This document shows, one piece after another, positions 12,078-39,377 of a stretch of DNA of 39,377 nt. Source of the DNA: a virus; the IMG/VR virus record IMGVR_UViG_3300038701_002047, positions 1 to 39,377 of that record; one strand, 5' to 3'. The notes under the pieces are model-generated. The model did not search any database. It worked only from the letters and a program-made list of their open reading frames with translations, and was not told the origin of the DNA. Positions within the stretch are counted from its first letter, which is position 1; each line of letters starts with the position of its first letter. The position numbers were made by a program, and so were the translations under genes.

Positions 12078-12254
12078 CTAGTCGTTTTTTGGCTGATGGT
12101 TCTGAAATTTTTTCTCTTTTTGCGTATTCAGACTGAGTATATGGTTAAGTCTCTTAACCATATACTCAATAATTTCAAGTTCATCACCCATCATTATTTC
12201 CCCTTTCTCCAAACACTGGATAAACCTTTCTTTTATTTGAGTGCTTCTGTTCAT
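12078..12254 (-). CDS. Possible small protein, 58 aa
   Basis: The minus-strand frame starts MNRSTQIKERFIQCLEKGEI and is charged and helical ('MMGDELEIIEYMVKRLNHILS'). Family not recognised. A perfect 16-bp inverted repeat (12134-12168) lies inside it and a shorter copy of its core lies just upstream of the ATG (12265-12280), so the stretch could instead be a regulatory region. It is the last reading frame of the minus-strand block. Confidence 0.35.
   Translation of the reverse strand: MNRSTQIKERFIQCLEKGEIMMGDELEIIEYMVKRLNHILSLNTQKEKKFQNHQPKND
12134..12168. repeat. Perfect 16-bp inverted repeat, 3-nt loop
   Basis: Left arm TGAGTATATGGTTAAG (12134-12149), loop TCT, right arm CTTAACCATATACTCA (12153-12168). 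No T-tract follows on either strand, so it is not a classic terminator. The core GGTTAAGTCTCTTAAC recurs at 12265-12280, suggesting an operator or recombination signal. Confidence 0.7.
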
Positions 12255-12264
12255 GATTTTTGTT

Positions 12265-12280
12265 GGTTAAGTCTCTTAAC
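12265..12280. promoter_or_regulatory. Second copy of GGTTAAGTCTCTTAAC dyad
   Basis: Identical to 12143-12158. It lies 11 bp upstream of the minus-strand ATG at 12254, a position that would suit an operator or leader structure. Confidence 0.45.
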
Positions 12281-12295: not shown

Positions 12296-12545
12296 GTTGT
12301 ACGCAATAAAAATTACTTAGTATCACGTTCCATTTGTTTACCTATTTCTATCCCAATTTGTATTAAATCACTTAAATCCCTTCCTAATGTTAAGTCCTCT
12401 GGATAATCAATATTTGCGTTCTCATCCCATTCCCCATATACTTTGCCATTATAAACTATCTCAACAGTTTCACAAGTAGCACAGTTTTTTATTTCTTTAT
12501 CTCTAAGTTCGTAGTTCATAAGTCGTAATTTTAAAAGCGTACAAC
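12296..12545. repeat. Inverted 9-bp repeats bounding a small-gene cassette
   Basis: GTTGTACGC at 12296-12304 and its exact complement GCGTACAAC at 12537-12545 flank the gene 12313-12519 and nothing else. In the gene's own direction the order is GTTGTACGC - gene - GCGTACAAC, as expected for the R' and R'' ends of attC-type sites on either side of an integron cassette. Confidence 0.5.
12313..12519 (-). CDS. Small cassette-type protein, unknown
   Basis: The 68 aa protein starts MNYELRDKEIKNCATCETVE and contains 'VYNGKVYGEWDENANIDYPEDLTLGRDLSDLIQIGIEIGKQMERDTK'. A CATC pair near residue 13 is the only motif. Family not recognised. It is enclosed by 9-bp inverted repeats, with a large imperfect hairpin just upstream (12549-12620), and reads in the same direction as two more small genes upstream, so it is probably one unit of a small-gene array. 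Confidence 0.55.
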   Translation of the reverse strand: MNYELRDKEIKNCATCETVEIVYNGKVYGEWDENANIDYPEDLTLGRDLSDLIQIGIEIGKQMERDTK

Positions 12546-12548
12546 ATT

Positions 12549-12620
12549 GTATAAAGTTAATACGCTTGTGATGGTCAGTACTTAATTTAAACGTTTGTGC
12601 AAAGCGTACTAACCTTATAC
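12549..12620 (-). repeat. attC-like long imperfect hairpin between small genes
   Basis: A 19-nt arm (12549-12567) pairs with 12602-12620 at 17 of 19 positions, with a 34-nt loop. On the minus strand both mismatches become G-T pairs, so the single-stranded or RNA form of that strand is fully paired. It spans most of the gap between the genes at 12313 and 12628. Confidence 0.55.
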
Positions 12621-12627
12621 TTTGCCG

Positions 12628-12831
12628 TTAAGGGCAAGCTTCAAAATGCGTTAAAATAGCAAAAGGATGGTTGTCATTATAACGGCAAATAGTCCCATCA
12701 TCAAATAAACATCTACAGTTTCTTGAAGAATATTTCGTAAATAAATCCGTATTATCATCAAAAGAAAGCCAGCCCTTAACAACAGGTATAGTGCATTGCT
12801 TGGTTTCCGCTTTTTTGTTATCTTTATTCAT
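12628..12831 (-). CDS. Small cassette-type protein with QCTIPV N-terminus
   Basis: A 67 aa protein with an N-terminus MNKDNKKAETKQCTIPVV, then an unrelated body with several cysteines ('SSRNCRCLFDDGTICRYNDNHPFAILTHFEACP'), possibly metal binding. The first part and upstream leader match the gene at 33335-33559: a 20-bp exact match encoding QCTIPV and a 35-bp exact match upstream of the start. The bodies differ. Function unknown; it looks like a modular accessory gene with a shared head. Confidence 0.6.
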   Translation of the reverse strand: MNKDNKKAETKQCTIPVVKGWLSFDDNTDLFTKYSSRNCRCLFDDGTICRYNDNHPFAILTHFEACP

Positions 12832-12848
12832 AATTAAAAATTTTAGTG

Positions 12849-12883
12849 TTATTAATTAAGTTCGTGCTGTAAGGTCGCAACGA
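12849..12883 (-). repeat. 35-bp exact repeat upstream of cassette gene (copy 1)
   Basis: Identical to 33577-33611, 20.7 kb away. Its central part (GTGCTGTAAGGTCGCAACG) is also related to 17303-17325. On the minus strand it contains a bulged hairpin TCGT(T)GC...GCACGA followed by an AT-rich leader to the ATG. Confidence 0.8.
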
Positions 12884-12900
12884 AATCATACAATTTGCCG

Positions 12901-13188
12901 TTAGCTCACATATTTAAAGCGAGCCTTAGTGATATGACCATATTTATCTTCCTCCAAAACTTCTTCAAGTTCATAGCCTGCTTCATCAAATAGATTGCCG
13001 TTTTCATATTCCCAACCCCAAGTTGACCATCCAGTTTTGTCGCCAGGATCTTCTTCCCATTGCTGAATAAGAATAATACGTGGGCTAACACCAAATAAAA
13101 GCAATATGGAGTCTATTGATTCATTAGTGTTTACTTCTTCTAATTTCCAGTCTCGGAGTATCTGATTTATTTTGTCTCTAATTTCCAT
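12901..13188 (-). CDS. Hypothetical protein, 95 aa
   Basis: A charged soluble protein: 'MEIRDKINQILRDWKLEEVNTNESIDSILLLFGVSPRIILIQQWEEDPGDKTGWSTWGWEYENGNLFDEAGYELEEVLEEDKYGHITKARFKYVS' style alternation of helix and strands. Not recognised. Its stop TAA is part of GCTAACGGCAAATTG, the start of the repeated boundary sequence shared with other small genes. It is the first of three small minus-strand genes after the RNA ligase. Confidence 0.55.
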   Translation of the reverse strand: MEIRDKINQILRDWKLEEVNTNESIDSILLLFGVSPRIILIQQWEEDPGDKTGWSTWGWEYENGNLFDEAGYELEEVLEEDKYGHITKARFKYVS

Positions 13189-13211
13189 ACTTCTTTTATT
13201 TGTGAACCGTT

Positions 13212-33308: not shown

Positions 33309-33353
33309 ATTAACATAATATGTTAATATCTGAGTTAGTGGCAATACAATTCC
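33309..33353. repeat. Cassette 3' boundary stem-loop (copy B)
   Basis: ATTAACAT / ATGTTAAT arms (33309-33316, 33320-33327) with AAT loop, then GTTAATATCTGAGTTAG continuing as in copy A (3 differences in 32 over 33322-33353). It overlaps the 3' end of the minus-strand gene at 33335. Confidence 0.7.
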
Positions 33354-33559
33354 TTAATATCGTAAGTAAACGAACCATTACCATGTTTCTTTCTTAAAGA
33401 GCATATGTACTTATCAGCTTCTGTTTTGTTTTTAAACAATTTCATACTGCTTTCAAATATACCTTCATAATCAATTCTCATGAAAGCCAAGTAAGTAATG
33501 CCACTAATAACAGGTATAGTGCATTGCTCTTTTTCGTTATTTTTACTATCTGTATTCAT
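33335..33559 (-). CDS. Small cassette-type protein with QCTIPV N-terminus
   Basis: A 74 aa protein, MNTDSKNNEKEQCTIPVISG followed by 'ITYLAFMRIDYEGIFESSMKLFKNKTEADKYICSLRKKHGNGSFTYDIKELYCH'. The N-terminal segment and upstream leader are shared with the gene at 12628; the body is different. Its last codons lie in the repeated boundary, so the C-terminus 'KELYCH' is encoded by the repeat. It interrupts the head operon in reverse orientation. Confidence 0.6.
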   Translation of the reverse strand: MNTDSKNNEKEQCTIPVISGITYLAFMRIDYEGIFESSMKLFKNKTEADKYICSLRKKHGNGSFTYDIKELYCH

Positions 33560-33576
33560 AATTCAAGGTTTTTGTA

Positions 33577-33611
33577 TTATTAATTAAGTTCGTGCTGTAA
33601 GGTCGCAACGA
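33577..33611 (-). repeat. 35-bp exact repeat upstream of cassette gene (copy 2)
   Basis: Identical to 12849-12883 and in the same position relative to its gene (about 17-18 nt upstream of the ATG). Followed by CACCATACCCAAACCGTTAAAACC, which parallels the ATACnn..CGTTA end of the other copies. Confidence 0.8.
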
Positions 33612-33703
33612 CACCATACCCAAACCGTTAAAACCTCGTTCCCTGACTATATCTTCGCATTAGTTAAGGTAATATCCAAACCCTTACCAGGACTGGTACG
33701 TGG

Positions 33704-37220: not shown

Positions 37221-39377
37221 ATGGAAAAACACCCTATAGCTTTAGAAAATCAAAAGTTTTTTGTTCCCAGTGATGCGGTCACAGGTGATCAAATAGGGGA
37301 GGTAACCTATCTGTACACTTTTACAACGTTCTGGAATGAATATTATGGTACTTCATATACAGACAATGATTTTAGTTTTTCCTTAATTTCAGGTACTGGA
37401 TTTGCCGTTAATTCATCAACAGGCGATCTTTCAGTAACTTCTTTATCAGGATTATCAGGAACTGTAAACATTACCGTTAGGGTAACGATCGACACTATGT
37501 CAATAGATGTTGCCTGCGAGATAGTAATTCTTGATTCAAGTAATTGCTTTTACTTCGATCCTGATTATGATGGTTCTAACGGGATAAGTATAGGAACAAG
37601 GGAACGGCCATTTTTGAAATTCAATGGTTCAGGTCTAACGCCAACGGCCGGTAAAACCTATCTTTGGCGAAGGGGTAAAACATTTACCAGGGAATGGACT
37701 GTAATTGTAAACCCAGTTGTCGGTGGTAATTACCCGGACTGGATAACGTTCGATGCGTATGGTCAAGGAGCAAGGCCAATTATCAACGGAAACGACAACA
37801 TATTAGGGAACGCAAATAAAAGGTTTGTAGACGTTGGTGGGGCTGGACTATCGAATGATAATTTAGATCCTACACTGGTTGGTAATAAATTCAGAATAGC
37901 GAACATTGATACCACCCATGATAAAAGTAATTCATGGTATCCTTTTCAAATTAGGGGGCTTGGTGATTACTTAGAATTCAGGCGTATATCGATGGAAGAA
38001 ACTACTTTCTCAGATGGATTCATGTACTTTGCCGTTTATACAAGTCAGGAATATTATGATAGGCAAATTTACCTTGAATCAATCAAGACAAAAAATAGTG
38101 AGGAAAGATCCATAAAAATAGAAGCCGGGGGCGTAAGGGGTAATAATTTCTACTGTATCAATGAAGGGCCAACATTAACAGAACACCCGGCACCCGGTGC
38201 GGCAAATTGGCCAAATGTGACACTTAAATATATTTACGCCTCAGGTAATAATATTTCTACGTCTAATTTAGGATTACAATGTCGATCAGGATTTCACACC
38301 TATGAATTTTGTTACCTAAAAGGATTTGGGAACACCTTAGTAGTTTACATTCATCTTGCTTTGGATGGTAAGGGAGGTATTTACGATGTTAAAAATGGAG
38401 GATTTAAAAATATAATTGTCGATGGTGCGCAATCTACTGTATCCTATTTTGGAAGGCAGGGCGGTACTACTGGGATTGCCGATGGTATTTATTTCACCAA
38501 CATAAAGGCAATTAATTGTTCTGATGGTATGCAGGTTGCCGAAGGAGCTGTTAATACCTTAATAAATTATTGTGATATTTCAGACACCGGAAATGATGGG
38601 ATAAGAATTTTTTCTTCTGCTGGATCAGGAACAAAAATACATAATGTTACAGCATTTGGTAATAATTCCAATGACATAGAATTAAGCTTAGGAGGTGTAG
38701 AGGTAATAAATAGCAATTACGGGTCAATCGGTGGCACTCCAACCGGGTCAAACAATTCTAATTCACAAATAGAAGGCGATCTAATCAACGCTGGTATTTA
38801 CCTTGACTATACCCATGATTCAATCAATAATCCGGTACCTCCTGAATTCCCATCTATTGGGGCTTATGAATTCACAACCGAGCAGACATTGACGGTTACC
38901 GTTGATCCTGTTGCAAGCGGAACAACTAATGTAACAAGTGTTACCCATGGAGAAGATGAAGTTATTAATTTGGTGGCCACTCCGGCAAATGGATTTGGTT
39001 TTGTGAATTGGACTATTGATTCCGTTGAAATAGATGATAATGCTTCATTTGCTTATACGGCTCCATTTTCCAACCAAACTATCACAGCTAATTTCAGCGC
39101 AACAGACACCTATACATTAACATTAACAAGTGATGGAAATGGAACTGTAAGCGGTGGAGGGTCTTATGATGAAGGGGAAATTGTCGTATTAACCGCTGTT
39201 CCGGGAGTTGGATATGACTTTAGTGGATGGTTTCTTGATGGATCAACCTTAATATCAAGTTCAAACCCCTACAGTTATACAATGCCTGCGGAAAATGTTT
39301 CCATAGAAGGGCAATTTACCGAAACACCACCCGACCCACCAACACCGGAACCAGAAACAGGTAAACGATGTGAAACA
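37221..39377 (+). CDS. Beta-helix spike protein with InlB-like repeats (continues at base 3)
   Basis: The frame is open from ATG 37221 to the end (719 codons) and re-enters at base 3. The N-terminus (about 1-110) is a cadherin/Ig-like beta domain ('MEKHPIALENQKFFVPSDAV', later 'GFAVNSSTGDLSVTSLSG'). Residues about 115-560 form a pectate-lyase-type right-handed beta-helix ('FYFDPDYDGSNGISIGTRERPFLKF'). Two bacterial (InlB B) repeats then follow ('LTVTVDPVASGTTNVTSV' and 'TLTLTSDGNGTVSGGGSYDEGE'). It is probably a receptor-binding or glycan-degrading appendage; placed next to the connector genes, it may attach at the neck. It lies 4 nt downstream of a promoter box. Confidence 0.65.
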   Translation, partial: MEKHPIALENQKFFVPSDAVTGDQIGEVTYLYTFTTFWNEYYGTSYTDNDFSFSLISGTGFAVNSSTGDLSVTSLSGLSGTVNITVRVTIDTMSIDVACEIVILDSSNCFYFDPDYDGSNGISIGTRERPFLKFNGSGLTPTAGKTYLWRRGKTFTREWTVIVNPVVGGNYPDWITFDAYGQGARPIINGNDNILGNANKRFVDVGGAGLSNDNLDPTLVGNKFRIANIDTTHDKSNSWYPFQIRGLGDYLEFRRISMEETTFSDGFMYFAVYTSQEYYDRQIYLESIKTKNSEERSIKIEAGGVRGNNFYCINEGPTLTEHPAPGAANWPNVTLKYIYASGNNISTSNLGLQCRSGFHTYEFCYLKGFGNTLVVYIHLALDGKGGIYDVKNGGFKNIIVDGAQSTVSYFGRQGGTTGIADGIYFTNIKAINCSDGMQVAEGAVNTLINYCDISDTGNDGIRIFSSAGSGTKIHNVTAFGNNSNDIELSLGGVEVINSNYGSIGGTPTGSNNSNSQIEGDLINAGIYLDYTHDSINNPVPPEFPSIGAYEFTTEQTLTVTVDPVASGTTNVTSVTHGEDEVINLVATPANGFGFVNWTIDSVEIDDNASFAYTAPFSNQTITANFSATDTYTLTLTSDGNGTVSGGGSYDEGEIVVLTAVPGVGYDFSGWFLDGSTLISSSNPYSYTMPAENVSIEGQFTETPPDPPTPEPETGKRCET
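39252..39377. repeat. Terminal direct repeat, right copy
   Basis: Exact copy of bases 3-128. Joining the two copies gives a circle of about 39,249 bp and restores the reading frame of the beta-helix gene that starts at 37221. Confidence 0.9.

Follow-up and report, generated by a model that had tools for sequence, protein, structure and literature searches.

The question raised by this locus is whether three small minus-strand genes, which the first-pass annotation had compared with integron cassettes, are indeed mobile units of that kind and which enzyme would move them. The window, i.e., the whole stretch of DNA analysed, is a virus record of 39,377 bases. Its ends (1-130 and 39250-39377) encode the same peptide (..ISSSNPYSYTMPAENV..), so that the phage genome is probably circular or has terminal redundancy. 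Comparison with other phages and with bacterial genomes brings out, at the level of sequence, the units, their exact gain and loss, the exchange point, the polarity, in-frame fusions, and arrays with an adjacent recombinase. We consider it likely, with a probability of about 0.86, that the small genes are integron-type cassettes, which a tyrosine recombinase would mobilise in the form of folded single strands.

Architecture of the array

Three consecutive cassettes, each composed of an attC-like hairpin and a small gene, occupy 13211-12296 of the minus strand (Table 1). Along this strand, AACGG is followed by hairpin A, GTTAGCCCAC, body A, GTGAGCTAACGG, and hairpin B, and then by GTTAAGGGC, body B, GCCCTTAACGG, hairpin C, GTTGTACGC, gene C, and GCGTACAAC. 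In A, B, and C alike, the GTT.. start of the gene body is complementary to its own ..AAC end over 9-10 nt. An imperfect R''-L''-loop-L'-R' hairpin with GTT/AAC R boxes is present in each, strong in C and imperfect in A and B. A row of at least two attC-like sites without an integrase constitutes a CALIN; the three cassettes form one, called here without the standard software.

The boundaries described in the first-pass annotation were confirmed in detail: the exact 9-bp inverted repeats around one gene (GTTGTACGC/GCGTACAAC at 12545-12537 and 12304-12296), the 19-nt imperfect hairpin (12620-12602 / 12567-12549), both mismatches of which are G-T on the minus strand, and the boundary GCTAACGGCAAATTG, which overlaps the stop of the gene at 12901. 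What it missed is that genes A and B start inside the hairpins, with leaders lying between AACGG and GTT, and that there is another unit at 33629-33334, whose R' box is partly decayed (GTTATTAGTGGCA vs. TGCCACTAAC). The first 33 aa of gene A (MEIRDK..LLFG) are encoded within hairpin A, and its body begins with VSPRI; the 19-nt L'' arm of this hairpin is 89% complementary to 13092-13110 and is kept in another phage, L074. Neither gene A nor gene B belongs to a Pfam or PHROG family, proteins A, B, and C had no tblastn match in the named phages, and Rfam and ARAGORN gave no match in the window.

Table 1. Features of the cassettes in the window
Feature	Coordinates	Strand	Remarks
Cassette A, whole mobile unit from AAC to AAC	12900..13211	-	hairpin A, leader, and body
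Hairpin A, L'' arm CAAATAAAAGAAGTATGGA	13184..13202	-	ATG of gene A inside
Hairpin A, L' arm TCCATATTGCTTTTATTTG	13092..13110	-	coding
Cassette A, R' box GTTAGCCCAC	13080..13089	-	9/10 complementary to own R'' GTGAGCTAAC
Gene A, 95 aa	12901..13188	-	
Cassette A, R'' box GTGAGCTAAC	12900..12909	-	stop codon included; exchange point AA^C
Hairpin B, L'' arm GTATGATTTCGTTGC	12877..12891	-	homologous to GGTATGGTGTCGTTGC in many phages
Gene B, predicted attC-encoded start and leader MNKDNKKAETKQCTIPV	12781..12831	-	ends at G^TT junction
Hairpin B, L' arm GCAATGCACTATACC	12785..12799	-	coding
Cassette B, R' box GTTAAGGGC	12772..12780	-	9/9 complementary to R'' GCCCTTAAC
Gene B, 67 aa	12628..12831	-	leader and body VKGWLSF..
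Cassette B, R'' box GCCCTTAAC	12627..12635	-	stop codon included
Hairpin C, L'' arm GTATAAGGTTAGTACGCTT	12602..12620	-	
Hairpin C, L' arm AAGCGTATTAACTTTATAC	12549..12567	-	
Cassette C, R' box GTTGTACGC	12537..12545	-	exact complement of 12304-12296
Gene C, 68 aa	12313..12519	-	different gene between same flanks in Gundel_1
Cassette C, R'' box GCGTACAAC	12296..12304	-	array end; 9/9 with R'
Fourth unit, CTIP-type hairpin and gene 33335-33559	33334..33629	-	

Hairpin 12549-12620, with a score of 17.6, was the best in the window in our own hairpin detector, and shuffled windows gave 4-11 weaker hits per strand, mostly of about 10-11. Because it allows no gaps, the detector overlooks imperfect sites, A and B among them, and the site counts obtained with it are lower bounds. 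Only 7 of the 2,323 GTT..AAC pairs lying 140-300 nt apart in the window are complementary at 9/10 positions or more, and three of these seven are the three consecutive cassette genes. Folding of short stretches, which had been proposed as a check, did not single the sites out (minimum-energy z of −1.03 and −0.35, not exceptional); the evidence for the hairpins is comparative, not thermodynamic.

Several features lie around the array. Directly before the AACGG of hairpin A is the TAG stop of a 25-aa hydrophobic ORF (13289-13212, minus strand; MKYTLIALIALILLSFICRPSNVIV), possibly the gene of a preceding cassette. Past the last R box (12304-12283, minus strand), AAC-TACTTACTAAGCGC resembles both AAC-TACCCTATATACAC before the integrase of the phage locus L027 and AAC-TACTTTATAGTCGC in L074, and it is perhaps an attI-like array end without an integrase. 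A perfect 16-bp palindrome with a 3-nt loop (12134-12168) is located inside the ORF at 12078-12254, and its core (TGGTTAAGTCTCTTAAC) recurs as an exact 17-nt repeat at 12264-12280, just upstream of that ORF.

Shared boundaries and gain and loss of units among phages

When the region was compared with named phages by blastn, the matches fell precisely on the boundaries, and the genes were unmatched. Positions 12517-12637 are 94% identical to Tenacibaculum phage Gundel_1, in which the next gene is unrelated, and positions 12777-12902 are 79% identical to Polaribacter phage Freya_2. Hairpin C and the GTTGTACGC..TAATTTTTATTGCGTACAAC frame surround a different gene in Gundel_1, and the L'' arm of this hairpin is conserved there and in IMG/VR loci with other genes behind it. 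Pattern scans of IMG/VR recovered dozens of loci. At type-B and type-B-like phage sites, the 10 bases after GTT are complementary to the end of their own gene at 8.62/10 positions compared with 6.77 for cross pairings; none of 20,000 permutations reached the observed value (p<=5e-5), a p-value that is descriptive only because the sequences are related. The CTIP-type hairpin had no exact hit in 84,980 cellular genomes and none in plasmids; unlike the attC family, this type seems to be confined to phages. Of the five hits of a shorter pattern, four were due to chance and one, in a prophage-like region of Winogradskyella (L062), was genuine. In two loci (L020 4721, minus strand; L028 13112, plus strand), the CTIP leader and junction occur without the usual upstream hairpin half, as if that half had been replaced.

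Whole units can also be compared. The 312 bp of cassette A are 90.7% identical to positions 2978-3289 of L074, an unrelated phage. The identity runs from AACGG to GCTAAC (13211-12900 of the window), the sequences on both sides are unrelated, and blastn found nothing else in common. L029 and L031 are 100% identical in the flanks, and L029 has an extra 949 bp at TAA^C that comprise a hairpin, a DNA methyltransferase gene, and matching R boxes. Phages P12002L and P12002S, which are 99.6-99.9% identical in the array flanks, differ in the cassette regions; their junctions lie at or just beyond AAC(G), and at those that overshoot AAC by a few bases homologous recombination may have contributed. The clonal Freya isolates 2, 5, 8, and 10, which share one host, present all four combinations of two units (none, X, Y, and X plus Y, in this order; loci L040-L043 are Freya_2, 5, 10, and 8, respectively). 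Units X and Y, of 902 and 3,198 bp, each start with an attC hairpin, are joined at AAC, and lie directly before the phage integrase gene. Unit Y contains seven ORFs and for this reason may be more than one cassette. The isolation paper of these phages (PMC8776804) reported their size range and interpreted the integrase as pointing to lysogeny; its main text is silent on integrons. The idea that the size variation reflects an unrelated region was ruled out by comparison of the junctions, which identifies it as gain and loss of cassettes. Related phages with precise gain or loss, proposed in the first-pass annotation as a check, thus exist. Its reading of the boundaries as attC sites is upheld by the own-end complementarity, by the precise appearance and disappearance of units at the R box, and by the occurrence of these hairpins in host arrays beside an integrase.

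Reversed polarity and start codons within the hairpins

The recombination polarity that these sequences show is opposite to that suggested by gene direction, the attC being located 5' of the gene body. With both kinds of transition mismatch allowed, the arms of the phage hairpins contain 78 G-T pairs and 17 A-C pairs on the gene-sense strand, and the sense-strand fold is the more stable one at 44 of 48 phage sites. A Vibrio control, limited to two attC sites, leans the opposite way (1 G-T vs. 3 A-C on the gene-sense strand). Genes are sense to the folded strand in a ratio of 65:7 in phages, which are not a random sample of all phages because the sites were found through their similarity to the window, compared with 4:109 in host arrays. 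The classical antisense arrangement in 109 of these 113 host cases ruled out that host genes are reversed as well. A gene upstream of its own attC, the usual though not strictly defining polarity, is therefore not what the phages have. Since exchange would take place at AA^C beside the stop, the gene-sense strand would act as the bottom (gene-antisense) strand of classical integrons does.

The reversed arrangement places the beginnings of proteins in the hairpins. At 26 independent type-B or type-B-like phage sites, an ATG and a leader (typically MNTDSKKTETEQCTIPSV) lie in the hairpin and are in frame with a different body each time; gene A is built likewise with another hairpin. In 24 of the 57 phage hairpins with an ORF, as found by the automatic detector, the start codon is within the hairpin and the ORF crosses GTT. 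In P12002L, the whole 44-aa gene gp57 (39530-39664) is located in the loop of an attC-like hairpin (L044 39709) with the stem GTATATGATTAGTTGC / GCAATTAATTATATAC. Where codons of the type-B leader differ by one base, the fraction of synonymous differences is 0.32 compared with 0.20 expected, a weak sign of coding constraint. The leaders are predicted to be translated.

These observations have to be weighed against explanations that require no integron-type reaction. In DNA of such low GC content weak hairpins are common, and the folding z-scores are modest; chance inverted repeats would nevertheless have to account for the own-end pairing, the unit shared by L074 and the window, the L029/L031 difference, and the gain and loss in Freya, and this comparative evidence refutes them to the point that we give them practically no weight. 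Homologous recombination at the repeated boundaries might swap genes with no site-specific enzyme, as the length (up to about 150 bp) and good conservation of the boundaries would permit and as some P12002L/S breakpoints inside them suggest. However, the L029/L031 and Freya junctions share just 3-5 bp, always AAC, between different hairpins, and the unit common to L074 and the window is bounded by AAC and has flanks without homology, which makes this explanation very unlikely. Equally hard to sustain is the view that the hairpins are RNA elements (terminators, processing sites, or translational controls) and that boundaries were spread by ordinary mosaic exchange. The G-U pairs do favour the mRNA strand in phages, and the hairpins are intergenic and carry start codons, but hairpins of the same type in host arrays fold antisense to the genes, the complementarity is between the two ends of a gene body, which are separated by hundreds of bases and do not belong to the L stem, and the arrays adjoin a recombinase. 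Selection at the RNA level may contribute to the G-U bias of the phage sense strand.

Flavobacterial arrays and the recombinase beside them

Similar flanks were sought in hosts, as the first-pass annotation had advised, and hosts carry them. A DNA search of 400 Flavobacteriaceae genomes revealed chromosomal arrays of the same hairpins, with at least 41 on one strand within 62 kb of one chromosome. For 127 host cassettes, the own-end complementarity is 9.03/12 compared with 6.01 for cross pairings (permutation maximum of 6.61), and duplicated host cassettes break at |AACG. Large attC-like arrays are those of L107 and L119-L134 (G070:C1:537-599 kb, the chromosome end of G162, and G160:C1:1111-1137 kb and from 2131 kb onward).

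A relaxed TIGR02249 threshold in four array-bearing genomes exposed a divergent tyrosine recombinase: in these genomes, the first examined, the best IntI-profile hit, or one of the top hits, is a protein of 375-394 aa that adjoins an array. In 20 further genomes with the recombinase, the 3' side of its gene carries 82 hairpins on the opposite strand and 1 on the same strand, compared with 5 in all (2:3) on the 5' side; shuffled sequence yielded 6. At a distance of 24-128 bp after the recombinase stop lies a conserved motif, CATATAACCAG^TT or ..CAATTG^TT, which is followed by the first cassette, the start of which matches its own end at 10/12 or better in 16 of 20 cases (23% for cross pairings). 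By its sequence this site is attI-like. The attC array, tyrosine recombinase, and attI of a complete integron are thus all recognisable by sequence in Flavobacteriaceae.

At E<=1e-60, the recombinase was detected in 195 of the 301 Flavobacteriaceae genomes searched. At E<=1e-80, 73 of 248 Bacteroidota were positive; the N-terminal domain is often missing from the weaker Bacteroidota hits, which may represent other recombinases. An alignment of four members shows no variation in the catalytic residues, and NF040815 is the best profile match of the host protein. With TIGR02249, the host recombinases score 188-213 bits and the phage ones 97-108, below the cut-off of 265 that defines IntI, and the same search gave 465 bits in a Vibrio genome. 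A segment that takes up about 60 positions of the IntI model corresponds to about 17 aa in the recombinase. In an integrase tree, Vibrio IntI forms its own clade without flavobacterial proteins; the tree, in which one row (L154) was extracted wrongly and branches are long, supports no more than this. Related recombinases are encoded beside cassettes in Freya and L027. The window itself encodes no tyrosine recombinase (no PF00589 match, G000), in line with the statement of the first-pass annotation that no integron integrase is encoded, and is not a complete integron in cis, so that a recombinase must act in trans. Of the 40 further viral records with cassettes, many of which are fragments, 34 likewise have no tyrosine recombinase. 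The integrase expected from the host is likely not a classical IntI, and we suggest that the flavobacterial family, from hosts or from phages such as Freya, acts on the window phage.

It might instead be proposed that these are true attC cassettes and that classical IntI integrons elsewhere in the community move them. In the study of Qi et al. (2023, PMC9892861), P12002L_attC2, from a Polaribacter phage, was recombined by IntI1 in E. coli, and among the Vibrio relatives sampled classical IntI is common (17/31). However, TIGR02249 at E<=1e-60 found no IntI in any of the 400 Flavobacteriaceae genomes, the divergent recombinase is frequent there and abuts arrays of the same hairpins, and its relatives abut the cassettes of Freya and L027. 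We therefore regard classical IntI as an improbable, though not far-fetched, source of the activity.

With the flavobacterial recombinase as the enzyme, the reaction may be pictured as follows. A cassette would be [C-GG-L''-loop-L'-GTT-gene-AA]. During infection, the predicted time of the reaction, single-stranded phage DNA would expose the folded gene-sense strand, and a recombinase of this family, from the host or a co-infecting phage, would swap AA^C ends between a cassette and an attC or attI at the stop-overlapping R box (G^TT on the other strand). With the attC preceding its gene, opposite to the order in host arrays, and with the start codon and leader often inside the loop, the hairpin would land before the gene and bring an AT-rich leader, a start, and often an N-terminal peptide, because the phage cassettes are turned round; the far R box would supply the stop codon. 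DNA methyltransferases recur in sister arrays (L029, P12002L/S, and the Winogradskyella prophage-like L062), which suggests anti-restriction and host-interaction functions.

Cassette capture by phages is not as rarely described as the first-pass annotation had supposed: attC clusters (CALINs) in virulent phages, including P12002L, have been published (PMC9892861). Like the window, they comprise attC-bounded small genes without an integrase, and the L arms of the window are homologous to those of the P12002L attC family (GTATATGGTGCGTTT..AAATGCATTATATAC). The reversed polarity, the attC-encoded starts and leaders, the gain and loss, and the host recombinase are not described in the part of that paper considered here. 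The flavobacterial arrays share with Vibrio superintegrons the long one-directional series of attC and small genes, the attI by the integrase, the folded bottom strand, and the G^TT exchange. Unlike in Vibrio, the recombinase falls short of the IntI cut-off, is devoid of the IntI-type insert, has an extra N-terminal domain, and is co-directional with the array, with the attI on its 3' side, and the attC loops are often 70-145 nt long. In spirochaete integrons with reversed intI (PMC9668308), the integrase orientation is likewise flipped relative to the classical one, but those integrases are IntI with the IntI domain, which the flavobacterial ones lack. The best profile and structural relatives, judged by sequence, are XerA/XerC-type proteins (NF040815; PDB 4a8e and 5hxy; Vibrio IntI4, 2a3v), from which the recombinase differs in its N-terminal domain of ~95 aa and in its location beside attC arrays.

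Integrons have been listed for Bacteroidota (PMC8618304) and were considered almost absent, with integrases without cassettes known earlier and then one complete integron, from Salinibacter (IntegronFinder 2.0, PMC9024848); the definition in use rests on the IntI domain (PMC9668308). In the open-access literature that was searched, we found neither flavobacterial arrays nor this recombinase as an integrase, nor reversed phage cassettes or attC-encoded N termini. Two points appear to be new: the phage gene reversed relative to its attC, with the start and N-terminal leader often in the hairpin, and the Flavobacteriaceae integron arrays with an attI-like site beside a sub-cut-off recombinase without the IntI-type insert.

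On the whole, it seems probable, if less firmly so than the cassette nature of the genes, that Flavobacteriaceae harbour a widespread, unrecognised kind of integron whose recombinase lacks the IntI-specific domain, and that phages exploit it with reversed cassettes in which the hairpin supplies the start codon and N terminus, so that genes and protein beginnings are swapped. Whether the recombination of folded attC needs the IntI domain, how phage and host exchange cassettes, and whether an N terminus encoded by an attC is translated have become testable. If the arrays are integrons, a major marine bacterial group would have large gene-capture platforms that were missed because the tools require the IntI domain, and its phages would both carry and reshuffle the cassettes.
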